A stretch of DNA of 64,000 nt from Bdellovibrionales bacterium (GTDB lineage Bacteria; Bdellovibrionota; UBA1018; CAIMNF01). Position numbers and translations under genes: made by a program. Position 1 is the stretch's first letter. Every line of letters begins with the position of its first letter. The notes beneath the pieces were generated by a model. That model was not told the DNA's origin, did no database searches, and was given only the letters and a program-made list of their open reading frames with translations. This document shows, piece after piece, positions 35,006-41,260 of this stretch. The stretch lies in contig CANNBJ010000002.1 in the NCBI GenBank assembly GCA_947502835.1, positions 310,001-374,000 on the forward strand, in the 5' to 3' direction.

Positions 35006-35095
35006 GGAGAGATGGCAGAGTGGTCGATTGCACCGGTTTTGAAAACCGGCAGGCTCGCAAGGGTCTCGGGGGTTCAAATCCCTCTCTCTCCGCCA
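35006..35095 (+). tRNA. tRNA-Ser (anticodon TGA)
   Basis: A class II tRNA: acceptor arms GGAGAGA / TCTCTCC, anticodon loop TTTGAAA (anticodon TGA), a long variable arm, T-loop TTCAAAT and an encoded CCA. It is 90 nt. No clear terminator follows. The structured stretch at 35126-35462 lies downstream on the same strand and could be part of the same transcript. Confidence 0.97.
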
Positions 35096-35125
35096 TTCCT
35101 TACTAATCACCTATTTTCATAAGAT

Positions 35126-35230
35126 CGGGGTCTTCAGGAATCCCTTACTCCTCCATGCGGCATCGTGCCGCCTCGCTTTCGCGCATCCCGCGCTCGCGAG
35201 AGTCGTCGTAAGGGATTCCTGAAGGCCCCG
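35126..35230. repeat. 105-nt Y-shaped inverted-repeat element
   Basis: Arms at 35126-35148 and 35208-35230 are complementary over 23 positions with one difference, which would be a G-U pair in RNA transcribed from the plus strand. The inside holds a perfect small hairpin (GCGGCA TCG TGCCGC) and a second weaker one (TTTCGCG ... CGCGAGA), so the whole could fold as a three-way junction. No coding frame is credible. A REP-like mobile palindrome, an RNA processing signal, or a domain of a longer small RNA are all possible. Confidence 0.65.
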
Positions 35231-35341
35231 AATTTCTGTAAGTGGTGGTCAATAAGGGAAGGCGGAGAGAGAGGAGAGTTGGTTACCGTCGTTGGGGTTC
35301 ACAATTTTGCCACGGAAGTAGCGTCAGCTGCGACGGCAAAA

Positions 35342-35385
35342 TTGCACAAACCGGAGGTTTGCCCGCAGGGTCGAGGCCAGGATGG
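35342..35385 (+). repeat. 44-bp direct repeat, copy 1
   Basis: This segment is identical to 35416-35459, with a 74-nt period. It begins TTGCACAAACCGGAGG and ends GGCCAGGATGG, and carries one GGA hairpin and one CAGGATG site. Confidence 0.9.
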
Positions 35386-35415
35386 GCTGGTGACAAAAAT
35401 ATCAGGATGATATTT

Positions 35416-35459
35416 TTGCACAAACCGGAGGTTTGCCCGCAGGGTCGAGGCCAGGATGG
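35416..35459 (+). repeat. 44-bp direct repeat, copy 2
   Basis: Identical to copy 1. The first bases overlap the right arm of the 11-bp GGA hairpin, so stem and repeat are interlocked. Confidence 0.9.
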
Positions 35460-35497
35460 CCGAGATGAAATCCCTCTTCCTGATGTCACTGGATTCC

Positions 35498-36256
35498 TCA
35501 ACGCCTGCCTTCGAGCAGTTTCCTCACAATTCCTGTCGAATAGGCGCTGGCCACTTCTTGAATGAATCGACTGAAGTCCTGATGGGCGTTGTCATCGCCT
35601 GCATCCGAGATGGTCCGAACGACGGAGAATCGAATGCCGTGCTCGGTACAAACTTGCGCAACCGCGGCGCCCTCCATCTCAACGCAAAGGGCATCCGGCA
35701 ATTCGTTCCTGAGCCGGGAAATCTCTTCCAAGGACTGAAAGAAGCGATCTCCACTCACGATCAGCCCGGAACGAACCCTGGCCTCATCAAGCGCGAACTC
35801 GGCGCGAGAGCGGGCCCACTCAGGGGAAGTCCTCAGGTGAGAAAGGAATTCGACTACCGCGTGCTCGAGGGCCTTTGTGCATTCAAGATCTGCTTTCAAA
35901 TGGGTGGATCCCAGCAGGGGAATTTCATATCGGGAGAACAGGGGCCTCGGATCAAGATCGTGTTGAAGGAGTTCGGATCCGATCACCACATCGCCTACCT
36001 TGAGCGAAGGAGCCACGGCTCCCGCAACGCCGGTAAAGATCAGCTCCTCAATCGGGTACTTGGCGAGCAAGTGAGCCACAGTTGCAGCGGCTGCGACTTT
36101 TCCCCAGCGTGAGCACACCAGCACCACTTCTTGACCATAAAGAAGTCCCCGATGGTAGGTTCGTTTCCCGGCCTCGAAGCTTTCCGTGACAGAGAGGTCT
36201 CTCAGAAGTCCCGCGTTTTCCTCAGGCATTGCACTCATGATCGCGATTAGGCCCAT
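35498..36256 (-). CDS. mtnN: 5'-methylthioadenosine/S-adenosylhomocysteine nucleosidase
   Basis: This 252-residue protein has IAIMSAMPEENAGLLRDL at the start, TGVAGAVAPSLKVGDVVIGS in the centre, and the signature ALCVEMEGAAVAQVCTEHGI then VVRTISDAGDDNA with the catalytic Asp. It removes adenine from MTA and SAH in methionine salvage and SAM detoxification. ATG 36256 is preferred. ATG 36265 is also possible. A TATGCT box lies 11 nt upstream. It is downstream of and codirectional with the giant lipoprotein gene, 63 nt away. Confidence 0.92.
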   Translation of the reverse strand: MGLIAIMSAMPEENAGLLRDLSVTESFEAGKRTYHRGLLYGQEVVLVCSRWGKVAAAATVAHLLAKYPIEELIFTGVAGAVAPSLKVGDVVIGSELLQHDLDPRPLFSRYEIPLLGSTHLKADLECTKALEHAVVEFLSHLRTSPEWARSRAEFALDEARVRSGLIVSGDRFFQSLEEISRLRNELPDALCVEMEGAAVAQVCTEHGIRFSVVRTISDAGDDNAHQDFSRFIQEVASAYSTGIVRKLLEGRR

Positions 36257-36319
36257 GCAAGTCATGTAGCATACCTGGCAAGTTCGCGGCAATCATCGGA
36301 GAAATGATCCGCTGTCACC

Positions 36320-39300
36320 CTATTGCGCTTGGTACACGGTAGGAGCGCTCGCTGCAGCCTCGATCTGAAGGGTTGTTGCATACCCGGTGAGTTTTTTTGT
36401 TCCGGTCGCGTTCGAAGTGGAGGAGCCGAAACACTTCACCTTGTTCAGGTTCGTCACGTAGCACGCATGATTGTCGCCTGCTGCGATATCAACCGGCCAT
36501 TCTGTCGCACTCGCACTCAAGCTTGCTGCAGGAGGCATTCCGTTTGAAGCGAATGGAACGTCGGACAAAAAGCCCGCCGCACGACCCAGTTGGCCTTGAT
36601 TTCCCTTGCCGAAGCACTTGATCGAGGAATCGCCAAGAAGGGCGCATGTGAAGGATAGCCCGACCGCAAGTTTCCTCACCTCGGCACCAGAGCCGAGATT
36701 TACAGGTAAAAGTAAGCTCATGTCACCGCTTTTTCCGCCGACATCGATGATGGGAACACTCGTTCCATTGCAAGCAAAGAGCCCTTCACCATTGGAGTTG
36801 CGCATATAGCATTGACCGAGAAGCCCCGCAAAGGTGCTTACGCTTTCAACCGATGGTTCAACCGCTGTTTTTCCGAAGCAACGCAAAACTCCCGTCTGGC
36901 TTCGCGCGCACGTACGGGCACCGAAGGAGGCTACGACTTCAGATGCATTGAATCCGGAGCCCAGGGCAATCTCCGGCAGGGAACTCATTGCCCCGATCTT
37001 TGGATCGGAAGCCGAGGTCGGCTTTCCGTAGTTGTCCATGTTCGGTTGCCCGATTTGCCCGTAGAAATTGTCTCCCCAGCATCGGGCCTTTCCATCACTG
37101 AAGGATGCGCAGGTGTGGGAGGAACCGGCGGAGATGGAAACAGCAACCCCTCCCGGAACCGCGACTGTGGGAAGAGAGTTCCCCATTTCACCGGATGCGT
37201 CGCCAAGGTTGCCTGTCGTCGCTGTCCCAAGTTGGCCCGACCCGTTCGAGCCCCAGCACTTGATCGAGCCATTCTCAAGAATTGCGCACGAGTGCTCGAA
37301 GCCCGCAGAGATGTCGATCGCCTTGAGAGCGCCCGAGGTGCTGCTTCCCAGGTCTATGGGGGCAATCGAGTTGTTGGACAGAACAGGAGCGTTCAGTTGA
37401 ACCACGCTTCCGCGACCGAGTTGTCCGTATTGGTTGTCACCCCAGCAGGTGACCTCTCCCGATCTGGCGGGAGTTGCAGCGGGATAATCGACAATCGCGC
37501 ACACATGATATCGACCAGGAGCGAGCTTTCTTACTTTGGCGCCCGATCCAAAATTGATTCTCGCCATGGTTTGCACCAGCTGGTCACTGAAGTTGGAGCT
37601 AAGATTCTGCCCAAGCTCTCCTTTCAGGTTCGAGCCGAAGCAAATCGCTTCTTCCAATTCAGTGATGAGACAAGTCTTTAAGCCACCAGCAAAAACGCGA
37701 ATCCCCTTCACCACGCTGCCCGTGAGGGAGAGTGTCTTGGAGAAGCTGTTTTCAGGGCTTGCGAGATCCTTGTAGGCGATCGAAAGGGTTTGTGAATACG
37801 ATCCAAGCGCTGTGGGTGTGAAACTCAACTTGATCTTGCAGCTCGCACCCGGGGCAAGGATTGTACTTGAGTTGCAGGTGCTGCCGGCTGAGTCCATGGA
37901 GAATGGTGCCGAAAGACCGGTAAACGTTAGGCTCTTTGCGCTCACCACATTGGTCTGTGGATTTGTGATTGTGGCCTCGAGGCTCGCAGGGTCAACTGTT
38001 CCATCGGGCTTGATGGTTTTGCTTCCGAAGGCCAAAGGTGATGGGCTCAGAGAGAGGTTAGGATCCTGAATCAGAGATGAGCCTTGCAGGGATAGATTCA
38101 GCTGAGCATTCACTGCGGGTGCGGGCCCGGAGGCGTTTCCATTCCCGTCCTGGTAGTTCACGAGAATTGAAGAGGCGCCCGGACTCTGGATCACGGCTGA
38201 TGGTGCAAATTTGATTGAAACCACGCACGAAGAAGAAGCGCCGCTTCCTGGCTGGAGCTCGGAGGCCCCGCATGTGGTGCCAGCGGAATCAATCGTGTAC
38301 GCGGAGTTTGAGGGAGTTGAAAAACTGAAATTCTTGGCGATCCCTCCGGTGGTGGCCGGAGCAGTATTTGTAATGGTTACCGTCTTGATCTGTGACTGAG
38401 ATGGCACCGTGTTGATGATGCGGGCATCGAAATTGATCGAAGCTGCGGACAGTGTGAGGGTAGGATACTTCTGGCTTGCCGTACCACTCAGCGTAAGGGT
38501 AATGATGCCCGGAGGAGTCAGAGGATTGAGGGGCGTCAGCTGTACCTGTTTCGACTGGGCTCCCCACGAAGTCGGCACAAAGTTGAATTTGATCGAGCAG
38601 GTTGTGCCAGTCGGGGCGGCAGCGGTTTGTGGAGCCGCACAATTGTTCTCGGTGATGCTGAAAGGTCCTTGTCCCGTTGGCCAAGTCACGGAGATCGGGG
38701 CGAATGCCGAGTGCCCCCGGGCAGTTAGCGTCACTGTTTTCACTTCAGAGCTTGAGTTCAACGCGTATTGAGTCGAAAATTGTACACTGCTCGCGTTCGC
38801 AGTGACGATATTCAAGTCAGATCCTGTTCCGGAAAGGTCAAGATCAATTGTCTTTACAGCTTGAGCCTGGTCAACCACGCCATTGTTGTAAACAATTCTC
38901 AACTTGTACCCCGTGTAGACTTGGGCGGCTGCTGGTTTGAATCTGATCGGAAGGGAATAGGTTTGGCCCGCATTGAGTACGAAACCGGGATTGACGCTGG
39001 ACGGGGTGGTTACGAAGAAGGGTGAGGTCGAGCTTGCTCCGGCGGGATCAATCACGGAAACAGAATTGACTGTGACCCTGAAGAATCCATCAACCCTGAC
39101 GAATGCATTGATCGAAGCCGACTCAACATTCTTGATCGTTGTTGGGAAGGAGACGGGGGAGGCGGCGGTGCTCGAGGTGCCGCTTGCGACATACTTCAGG
39201 ATCGACGGATTCTTTTGGGTCGCCTTGATTGTGTAGGGGACATCCACCTTGCCGGAATTGTTCGTGGACGGGGTGCCTCCACCCGTGTACGTGGTGACGA

Positions 39301-41260
39301 TCAGATTTTTCTGATACGGGGGGTCCGTTTCGGTGCCGATGGTAGTGGTGCTTGAGAGTCCCACAGAGAATCGGCACGACTGTTGAGACCCACTGATCGT
39401 GAAAGGGGTGTTGCAAAGCGGAGGCGTGGCGCTGGCACTTGAAGGAAGCACTCCCGGAAATGCGACTACGGATGGAGAGCCGCTGAAGAATTTGAACTTG
39501 CTTCCCGTCTCATGTTGTCCACCAATCCAATTCAGGGTTCCTGAGCCGGAGAAGTTCATCGTTCCTAGCCCTGAGTAAATATCTGGAGTCCCACCGATCA
39601 TGACATAGCCAAGATCGATGACTGTTCCAGAGCCGCCGGTCGGATTGGTAATAGTAATGCTCGCGTCCCCAACTGCAGAAACGGAGTGAGAGATCGAGGG
39701 GTAGGGTTGGTTGCGTCCGTCCTGATACTGGAGAGAGAATGATTTGGTTACGGTTCCCCCCGCTTGCGGACTGAAAAGGAGCTTAAAGATACAGCTCCCC
39801 CCGGCAGGAATGCTTGTGCATGCTTGTGTTTGTGCTGAAGTCTGCACAAGGCTTCCCGAGAGCGTGCTCGACCCACCTGCAGCCTCGGTGAGACTTAGTC
39901 CGGATGCGGCTACACCGCCTGTGTTGTTGACAACCACGTTTGCAGTTGAGCTTTGAAAGACCTTTGCAGTCAAAGAGGTGGATGCAGAGGAGAAGGAAAG
40001 CACAGCAGGATTGACCGCAGTTCCTGTCGGATTCACGGAAACGGTTTGTGTGGCCCCGGTTGCACTTTGCTTGAAGCTGAGCACGATCGCACCACTCAAG
40101 GTTCCTGCCGCGGTGGGTTTGTAGAGCAATTTGTAGATGCAATTCCCGCTGATTTCCACGTTTGTTCCCGTGGTGGGGCAGGTGCTTCCGGTGGCTGCAA
40201 GGCTCACGAAATTGGGAAAGGTGATTCCCTGAAACAATGCGGGACCGGAACCAGATTTTTGAATCTGCAGGTCGGCTGTTCCCGGATCTGCAGCATTGGT
40301 GCTGGTCGAGGACCAAACCACGGTTCCAAAGGCAGGAGCCTGACCGCCCACAACGGCGAGAGAGGGGGGCACCACAACGTCGGTTCCCTTACCGGTGAGT
40401 GAAACCTGCGAAACAAATGCGGGTTCCGAGCCGTTATTGTATTCGACCGAGAAGGTCTCGTTCACTTGCAGGTTCCCACCCTGGGTCGGGGAGAAAACAA
40501 TGTCCACGTAGCAATCCTTCCCGATGGAGGAGAGATTGCACGGGGTGAGATTGGAAGGAATGTTACTCGTGGAAACAGAGAAACGGGACGGAGAAGAGGC
40601 GAACTTGAAGGAGACCGAGGTGGCCGGAGAGAGAGGATTGGGCGAGGCCGGATACTTGTCCGTGTTCGCATACACCATCACTCGTCTGCTTCCCGTGAAG
40701 TCCTTGGTGACGGATCCGAAATCGAGGGACTGCAAATCATCCTGATTTGAGGATCCTCCGTCTTTCAATTTGAGGAGCGCAACGCTTCTGCCTTCCCCTT
40801 CAATCGGGAATCTGACGATCTTTCTTTCTCCCAGATGGTTCTTGAATTCCGCAACCAAAAGAGGCTTGAAAGAGCTTACGATTTGAGGGTCGAACTTCAC
40901 GTTGACCGGACAAACCTCCGCCTTGTTGGGCGCGAGTTTTCCACAATTGGCAGTAATCTTGATCTGCTCAGAAAGTGACGGATCCGAAAGGCTCAGGCTT
41001 TGAATTTCGAGCTCATAATCCCCCGTATTCCGCAGTGCATACTCCTGGGTGGCAAATTGACCCAAGGCGAGACGGCCAAGCTTAACCCTGGATGCAGAGA
41101 GGTACTCCTGGGGTTTTGTCTCCGCAGTAACCACAGCAGGGGGTTTTTTTGCCAGCTCGAGCGTGGGGAGGATGTTGATACCGAATTTTTGGGTACAGCC
41201 TTCCAAGAGAAGTGCGCTTGCCGCAAAAGCCCCAAACAAACCCTGATTGATTCTGTTCAT
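36320..41260 (-). CDS. Giant surface lipoprotein with Ig-like (choice-of-anchor D type) and RCC1 repeats
   Basis: This 1646-residue lipoprotein has lipobox LLEGC (Cys22). Residues about 50-1180 hold roughly ten strand-rich repeats of 100-120 residues, each with a FxP or FxPxxxG pattern and a Gly-rich end (for example CSIKFNFVPTSWGAQSKQVQ and LTLSGTASQ), like ASPM/SPD-2/Hydin or choice-of-anchor D modules. Residues about 1184-1646 contain about eight RCC1/BLIP-II-type blades, each with a Cys pair (HSCAILENGSIKCWGSNGSG), probably disulfide-linked and closing a propeller. It is likely an extended adhesin-like stalk with a propeller tip. GGGGG precedes the ATG. Confidence 0.85.
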   Translation of the reverse strand: MNRINQGLFGAFAASALLLEGCTQKFGINILPTLELAKKPPAVVTAETKPQEYLSASRVKLGRLALGQFATQEYALRNTGDYELEIQSLSLSDPSLSEQIKITANCGKLAPNKAEVCPVNVKFDPQIVSSFKPLLVAEFKNHLGERKIVRFPIEGEGRSVALLKLKDGGSSNQDDLQSLDFGSVTKDFTGSRRVMVYANTDKYPASPNPLSPATSVSFKFASSPSRFSVSTSNIPSNLTPCNLSSIGKDCYVDIVFSPTQGGNLQVNETFSVEYNNGSEPAFVSQVSLTGKGTDVVVPPSLAVVGGQAPAFGTVVWSSTSTNAADPGTADLQIQKSGSGPALFQGITFPNFVSLAATGSTCPTTGTNVEISGNCIYKLLYKPTAAGTLSGAIVLSFKQSATGATQTVSVNPTGTAVNPAVLSFSSASTSLTAKVFQSSTANVVVNNTGGVAASGLSLTEAAGGSSTLSGSLVQTSAQTQACTSIPAGGSCIFKLLFSPQAGGTVTKSFSLQYQDGRNQPYPSISHSVSAVGDASITITNPTGGSGTVIDLGYVMIGGTPDIYSGLGTMNFSGSGTLNWIGGQHETGSKFKFFSGSPSVVAFPGVLPSSASATPPLCNTPFTISGSQQSCRFSVGLSSTTTIGTETDPPYQKNLIVTTYTGGGTPSTNNSGKVDVPYTIKATQKNPSILKYVASGTSSTAASPVSFPTTIKNVESASINAFVRVDGFFRVTVNSVSVIDPAGASSTSPFFVTTPSSVNPGFVLNAGQTYSLPIRFKPAAAQVYTGYKLRIVYNNGVVDQAQAVKTIDLDLSGTGSDLNIVTANASSVQFSTQYALNSSSEVKTVTLTARGHSAFAPISVTWPTGQGPFSITENNCAAPQTAAAPTGTTCSIKFNFVPTSWGAQSKQVQLTPLNPLTPPGIITLTLSGTASQKYPTLTLSAASINFDARIINTVPSQSQIKTVTITNTAPATTGGIAKNFSFSTPSNSAYTIDSAGTTCGASELQPGSGASSSCVVSIKFAPSAVIQSPGASSILVNYQDGNGNASGPAPAVNAQLNLSLQGSSLIQDPNLSLSPSPLAFGSKTIKPDGTVDPASLEATITNPQTNVVSAKSLTFTGLSAPFSMDSAGSTCNSSTILAPGASCKIKLSFTPTALGSYSQTLSIAYKDLASPENSFSKTLSLTGSVVKGIRVFAGGLKTCLITELEEAICFGSNLKGELGQNLSSNFSDQLVQTMARINFGSGAKVRKLAPGRYHVCAIVDYPAATPARSGEVTCWGDNQYGQLGRGSVVQLNAPVLSNNSIAPIDLGSSTSGALKAIDISAGFEHSCAILENGSIKCWGSNGSGQLGTATTGNLGDASGEMGNSLPTVAVPGGVAVSISAGSSHTCASFSDGKARCWGDNFYGQIGQPNMDNYGKPTSASDPKIGAMSSLPEIALGSGFNASEVVASFGARTCARSQTGVLRCFGKTAVEPSVESVSTFAGLLGQCYMRNSNGEGLFACNGTSVPIIDVGGKSGDMSLLLPVNLGSGAEVRKLAVGLSFTCALLGDSSIKCFGKGNQGQLGRAAGFLSDVPFASNGMPPAASLSASATEWPVDIAAGDNHACYVTNLNKVKCFGSSTSNATGTKKLTGYATTLQIEAAASAPTVYQAQ

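Follow-up and report, generated by a model that had tools for sequence, protein, structure and literature searches.

The window analysed here, a stretch of 64,000 nucleotides from a Bdellovibrionales bacterium, contains a tRNA-Ser(TGA) gene that is followed on the same strand by a long palindrome, pieces of the tRNA 3′ end and two tandem arrays of four hairpins each. The arrays begin ∼207 nt downstream of the tRNA and are placed between it and a convergent gene of the phosphorylase superfamily (35498-36292, PF01048). Inspection by eye of the translated 1646-amino-acid open reading frame at 36320-41260 suggests numerous Ig-like repeats and, at the C terminus, an RCC1-like region, after a lipoprotein-like start. 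The tRNA-linked features are:

35006..35095, + strand: tRNA-Ser(TGA), the linked gene (ARAGORN and Rfam RF00005)
35076-35095, + strand: piece A1, the repeated last 20 nt of tRNA-Ser, from T-loop to CCA (ARAGORN and Rfam RF00005)
35081..35274, + strand: long palindrome P, whole span (repeat search and fold)
35081-35111/35244-35274: outer arms of P, 31 nt, 84%, including the tRNA acceptor 3′ strand
35115-35148/35208-35241: inner arms of P, 34 nt, 85%
35261..35274, + strand: A′, inverted copy of the tRNA-Ser 3′ end, GGCGGAGAGAGAGG (sequence and repeat search)
35294..35301, + strand: GGGGTTCA, copy of the T-arm 5′ strand and T-loop start, before array 1 (sequence; same position in related cassettes)
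35302..35344, + strand: array 1, hairpin 1, 10-bp stem CAATTTTGCC/GGCAAAATTG with a 23-nt loop containing ACGGA
35347..35361, + strand: array 1, hairpin 2, CAAACC-GGA-GGTTTG, a GNA triloop whose GGA is not conserved
35362..35370, + strand: array 1, hairpin 3, CCC-GCA-GGG (sequence)
35373..35390, + strand: array 1, hairpin 4, imperfect, GA-GGCC-AGGAT-GGGCTGG (sequence)
35394..35418, + strand: array 2, hairpin 1, CAAAAATATC-AGGAT-GATATTTTTG
35421..35435, + strand: array 2, hairpin 2, CAAACC-GGA-GGTTTG
35436..35444, + strand: array 2, hairpin 3, CCC-GCA-GGG (sequence)
35447..35463, + strand: array 2, hairpin 4, GA-GGCC-AGGAT-GGCC-GA (stem GGCC-AGGAT-GGCC at 35449-35461)
35468..35477, + strand: A2, direct repeat of the tRNA-Ser 3′ end, running from the T-loop and cut short to AAATCCCTCT (10 nt)

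The order of the cassette is tRNA 3′ end, long palindrome, inverted tRNA-end copy, GGGGTTCA, two four-hairpin arrays and truncated direct tRNA-end copy. Because the tRNA acceptor 3′ strand is part of the outer arms of the palindrome, the tRNA end reappears behind the tRNA in inverted form. The arrays form a 44-nt exact direct repeat with a spacing of 74.

The first-pass annotation had reported stems closed on GGA, and all motifs that it named are found where it placed them. When hairpins are counted only if GGA lies in a loop of 3-6 nt and the stem is strict over 4 bp or more, the array has four, against a mean of 0.15 in 5000 mononucleotide shuffles, none of which reaches four. The three CAGGATG sites are likewise present, around 35379, 35404 and 35453. 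The stem described as a perfect one of 11 bp (array 2, hairpin 1) has 10 bp with an AGGAT loop, and 11 bp only if an A-T pair closes GGA. The fold of 35096-35500, suggested as a check, lies 5.9 SD below dinucleotide shuffles; much of this is contributed by the palindrome at 35115-35241, outside the region first annotated. The tRNA-derived pieces flanking the array (inverted copy 35261-35274, direct copy 35468-35477) had been overlooked: the hairpins are real, but they are the hairpin part of a tRNA-Ser cassette and not an isolated small RNA.

In the window (35115-35241) and in other tRNA flanks, the palindromes between tRNA and array can be sorted into families whose cores are conserved and whose arms are specific to the locus. 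Some have a TC-rich core (ACATC...CTCGATTTCC), some the core ACAGTCCTCGGACT...CGTCCTGCGGAACTCG, and others are ordinary terminators.

Cassettes in the same genome and in the phylum

Depending somewhat on the score cut-offs, about 15 of the 40 tRNA genes of this genome are followed by a copy of their own 3′ end in direct orientation, inverted orientation or both. Copies in direct orientation are cognate in 13 of 40 cases and non-cognate in 9 of 1560, and the nine non-cognate matches are mostly between related or neighbouring tRNAs. The 15 cassettes tabulated contain 18 GGA-loop hairpins, compared with 3.5 in shuffles. The window cassette, with four, has the highest number, and several cassettes have none.

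A covariance model of the array, termed R1, was built from an alignment of twenty-five arrays from many genomes. Searches at the DNA level and with R1, which follow up the suggestion to look for further copies, detect six arrays in the genome: two behind Ser-TGA (the window) and one each behind Arg-TCT, Met, Glu and Ser-GGA. All six R1 matches lie behind tRNAs and on the same strand. A repeated intergenic palindrome with GGA loops had been named at the outset as the alternative to a regulatory RNA. The arrays do constitute a repeat family, but every model match in this genome stands behind a tRNA.

A second array type (GTGGCTAGGCGGAG...GAGCGCTTAGCCGA) has a closing stem formed by the inverted and direct tRNA-end copies; this cassette type, at L159, L161, L138, L059 and L084, displays a similar three-hairpin fold. 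Among 55 genomes of the order, exact matches to the 14-mer GTGGCTAGGCGGAG are restricted to the window's own family. An exact 20-mer, CAGGGTCGAGGCCAGGATGG, was found at 17 loci of GTDB genomes (Xanthomonas and others), but these appear unrelated by eye, being apparently protein-coding, with no tRNA nearby and no array.

In the phylum, R1 detects 1-26 copies in 16 of 17 genomes, many of the genomes being drafts. Stem 1, with 10 bp and a 5-nt loop, covaries strongly, as had been proposed for examination with relatives: nine of its ten pairs vary in both partners, pairing holds in 99.6% of cells, none of 500 shuffles is as good, and slid controls drop to 33-56%. The loops are less uniform. Hairpin 1 displays ANGA in 62 of 75 loops and GGA in 44 of 75 (59%), 41% being without GGA; hairpin 4 displays GGA in 47 of 64 (73%). 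AGGA is a frequent, though not invariant, feature of hairpins 1 and 4. The middle hairpin loops are mostly GNA, with GGA in only 3 of 71 and mostly GAA or GCA elsewhere; the GGA of CAAACC-GGA-GGTTTG is therefore not a conserved feature.

The tRNA-derived copies have a characteristic form. In most cassettes compared in the phylum, the direct copy starts in the T-loop, 19-21 nt before the tRNA end, and it stops either at CCA or at most 42 nt past it. Many other cassettes have a full copy of 20-21 nt to CCA, and the window cassette keeps 10 nt. Orthologous Leu-CAG tRNAs are occupied in genomes G000 and G008, and empty in G001, G003, G006 and G009.

Three loci, L200 (tRNA-Val), L113 (tRNA-Leu) and L279 (tRNA-Arg), have direct repeats that run 30-42 nt past the tRNA end into the flank and resemble recent duplications. 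At L264, L265, L266, L275 and L180, several tandem arrays lie at or near one tRNA, some with more than one model match within a few hundred bases. Genus g89 (L221-L240) has ∼4-18 copies of the same hairpin array per genome, often ending beside other hairpins. Most of its copies whose surroundings were examined are intergenic and away from tRNA loci.

Relation to the tRNA-linked repeats of Escherichia coli

The tRNA-linked repeats (TLRs) of E. coli were already known in 1978 and have since been given no general function (PMC8144298). There are 22 in ten loci, and they end in 18-19 bp that match the 3′ end of the tRNA or rRNA before them (PMC8144298). Three of them, RrA, RrB and RrF, lie in rrnA, rrnB and rrnD, in each case between the pair of terminators; they are transcribed together with the rRNA by terminator read-through, are processed, and bind Hfq and CsrA (PMC8144298). 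RrB binds CsrA in vitro via GGA loops at ∼100 nM, and changing three GGAs to UUU abolishes the shift in the tested range (PMC8144298).

The model R1 was trained only on arrays of the phylum, with no E. coli sequence. Run against 66 kb of E. coli K-12 that comprise the rrnB, rrnD and tyrT loci, it detects the rrnB and rrnD elements with 37.9 bits and E 7e-9 as the sole significant matches, the next best having E 0.42; these E-values are rough, as the calibration was short. A BLASTN search of E. coli with a consensus gave no match, and the relation is visible by covariance model alone. The rrnB element consists of a CGGGA-loop hairpin, a GAA-loop hairpin, CCC-GGA-GGG, an AGGA-loop hairpin and then a copy of the 5S 3′ end, AACTGCCAGGCAT. 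The order common to the phylum arrays and E. coli is a first hairpin with a GGA loop, a GNA hairpin, CCC-GNA-GGG, a fourth hairpin with CAGGA, and the 3′-end copy. The window sequence fits an RrB-type fold of four hairpins with GGA in loops 1 and 4, array 2 having AGGAT in both.

RrA, RrB and RrF thus have the same hairpin order and loops (with the model match for rrnB and rrnD), have a 3′ end that copies that of the upstream stable RNA, and are placed behind a hairpin or terminator after a stable RNA gene. The window array also lies directly behind a tRNA gene, as TLRs do behind tRNA or rRNA genes. Copies of 19-21 nt occur in many cassettes of this genome and of the phylum, and their start 19-21 nt before the tRNA end agrees with the published hallmark of 18-19 bp; the window cassette has 10 nt (35468-35477). 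In contrast to RrA, RrB and RrF, the window element stands behind tRNA-Ser and not 5S rRNA, has two tandem arrays, an inverted tRNA-end copy and a truncated terminal copy, and belongs to another phylum. On the basis of the R1 match to rrnB and rrnD and the published TLR features, it is filed as a TLR of RrB type, albeit with reserve, as only 10 nt of the terminal tRNA copy are left in this cassette. Common descent would explain the resemblance to the E. coli elements most simply, convergence on a similar fold being a possible alternative.

The RtT RNA (rttR) repeats of E. coli, at tyrT-tyrV (RF00391), are a more distant parallel. They too stand behind a tRNA, and they repeat 19 nt of its 3′ end exactly. 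By eye, they further share GGGGAAGGAT as a short inverted piece, hairpins with GNA loops, CCCGAAGGG among them, and, immediately before AATCC, a hairpin of the form GA-stem-GA. Unlike those of the window, however, their loops are GCA and not AGGA, and they score only 5-7 bits with R1. With the RtT model, neither the window, at a cut-off as loose as E 10, nor the other cassettes scanned give a match, compared with 133-138 bits for the E. coli copies.

Possible CsrA binding and competing explanations

The best explanation as a whole, and on balance a probable one, is that of a TLR cassette which, after low-level read-through and tRNA-type processing, yields a short RNA that mildly titrates CsrA. 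With low efficiency, RNA polymerase would pass the hairpin that follows the tRNA, and the read-through piece would be freed by tRNA 3′-end processing at the tRNA 3′-end copies. The resulting short RNA may then bind CsrA dimers with its first and fourth hairpins, via their AGGA(U) loops, so that CsrA would be mildly titrated in step with tRNA synthesis. This explanation takes in the observed cassette plan, its recurrence at about 15 of 40 tRNAs, the covariation of the main stem and the structural match to RrB and RrF. The genome has an intact csrA, and its product retains L4 and R44, two residues with a role in CsrA function. Together with the RrB precedent and the loops, this points, with some reserve, to CsrA binding as the most likely activity of the window element. 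The presence of csrA, put forward originally as a check, is in itself uninformative, as csrA is found in all 40 genomes tested.

Several observations count against this best explanation. GGA is present in only 59% of hairpin 1 and 73% of hairpin 4 loops, and several cassettes are without a GGA-loop hairpin. G-T pairs are scarce in stem 1, the direct tRNA copy is truncated, and a simple scan detected no promoter-like or terminator-like site. In E. coli, tRNA-linked TLRs, unlike the rRNA-linked ones, were rated poor CsrA binders (PMC8144298). In genus g89 most of the copies examined lie away from tRNAs. The original proposal of a CsrA-binding RNA processed from the tRNA transcript has accordingly gained the precedent of E. 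coli RrB and RrF, stem covariation and an intact csrA, but it is weakened by incompletely conserved GGA loops and by a csrA that does not discriminate.

A different explanation, rather unlikely but of some weight, is that a hairpin element enters or copies itself at the DNA level at the tRNA T-loop, duplicates the tRNA 3′ end and is kept as palindromic DNA, the CsrA-like loops being incidental. Under selection on RNA, G-U pairs are normally better tolerated than mismatches of other kinds. Over 81 distinct arrays, the pairs of stem 1 comprise 778 of Watson-Crick type, 6 G-T (6 of 810) and 26 other mismatches, compared with 508, 14 and 3, respectively, in tRNA acceptor stems; the p value of 3e-5 (G-T versus other mismatches) is only indicative, since related sequences are not independent. 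Stem 1 alone separates in this way: over whole folds, G-U pairs amount to 6.8% in cassettes, 9.9% in tRNAs and ∼15% in shuffles, with no clear separation of RNA from DNA. The near absence of G-T pairs in stem 1, the occupied and empty orthologous tRNAs, the copy boundaries, sharply defined in the T-loop but variable at the downstream end (to +42 nt at L113, L279 and L200), and the copies dispersed outside tRNA loci in genus g89 and in genome G029 keep spread at the DNA level a live possibility, and the inverted tRNA 3′-end copy within the cassette is in line with it. On the other hand, no mobilising enzyme was identified, the same kinds of loops recur at hairpins 1 and 4, and the E. coli relatives are expressed RNAs (PMC8144298).

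REP/BIME repeats with their RAYT transposases are also multi-copy intergenic palindromes. The window family differs in that it is tRNA-linked in its own genome, with a stem of exactly 10 bp, an ANGA loop and no link to Y1 transposases. Mobilization of the REP/RAYT type was rejected because the number of REP-type Y1 transposases is uncoupled from copy number: G029 has 26 copies and no transposase match, and G010 has no copies and four matches.

A more speculative proposal, improbable as it stands, joins the two lines of thought. TLRs might represent an ancient hairpin element that crosses phyla and duplicates itself at the T-loops of stable RNAs via folded single-stranded DNA, and that in some lineages came to serve as a CsrA buffer, distributed over many loci, that reports on the transcription of tRNA and rRNA.

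Two further explanations have very little probability. A dedicated sponge RNA of the CsrB/RsmY type with its own promoter would account for the tandem GGA-loop hairpins and the three CAGGATG sites, as CsrB/CsrC and RsmX/Y/Z also have several hairpins with CAGGA(U)G loops, and a sub-threshold RsmY match was obtained (16.3 bits, E 0.13). However, the RsmY gathering score is 57, the CsrB/RsmX/Y/Z families have no match at threshold in the window, where the Rfam scan detects tRNA alone, no promoter-like site is seen, and the array is part of a multi-copy family linked to stable RNA genes. It is equally hard to credit that the cassette is a remnant of an integrative element whose integrase attachment site was the tRNA T-loop/3′ end, with attL and attR around a hairpin-rich remnant: the direct repeat runs from the T-loop at least as far as the tRNA 3′ end, and tRNA attB sites that include the T-loop do exist (PMC2647930), but the same arrays stand behind many different tRNAs, each with a cognate copy and often an inverted copy, the inserts are only a few hundred bp, and a phage or plasmid origin was rejected, as both collections are without similar DNA.

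The name 'tRNA-linked repeats' is rare in the literature searched. With the cassette read as a TLR, a family of this type is far more widespread than the E. coli description suggests, as ∼15 of 40 tRNA genes carry it in one small genome. TLRs are then not an enterobacterial oddity, since their fold, loops and tRNA-end copies recur in a second phylum. The comparative depth gained, from covariation, occupied versus empty tRNAs and GGA versus non-GGA loops, can be brought to bear on questions of TLR function and spread. If the link to CsrA is true, stable RNA synthesis would be coupled to post-transcriptional control via many small sites.
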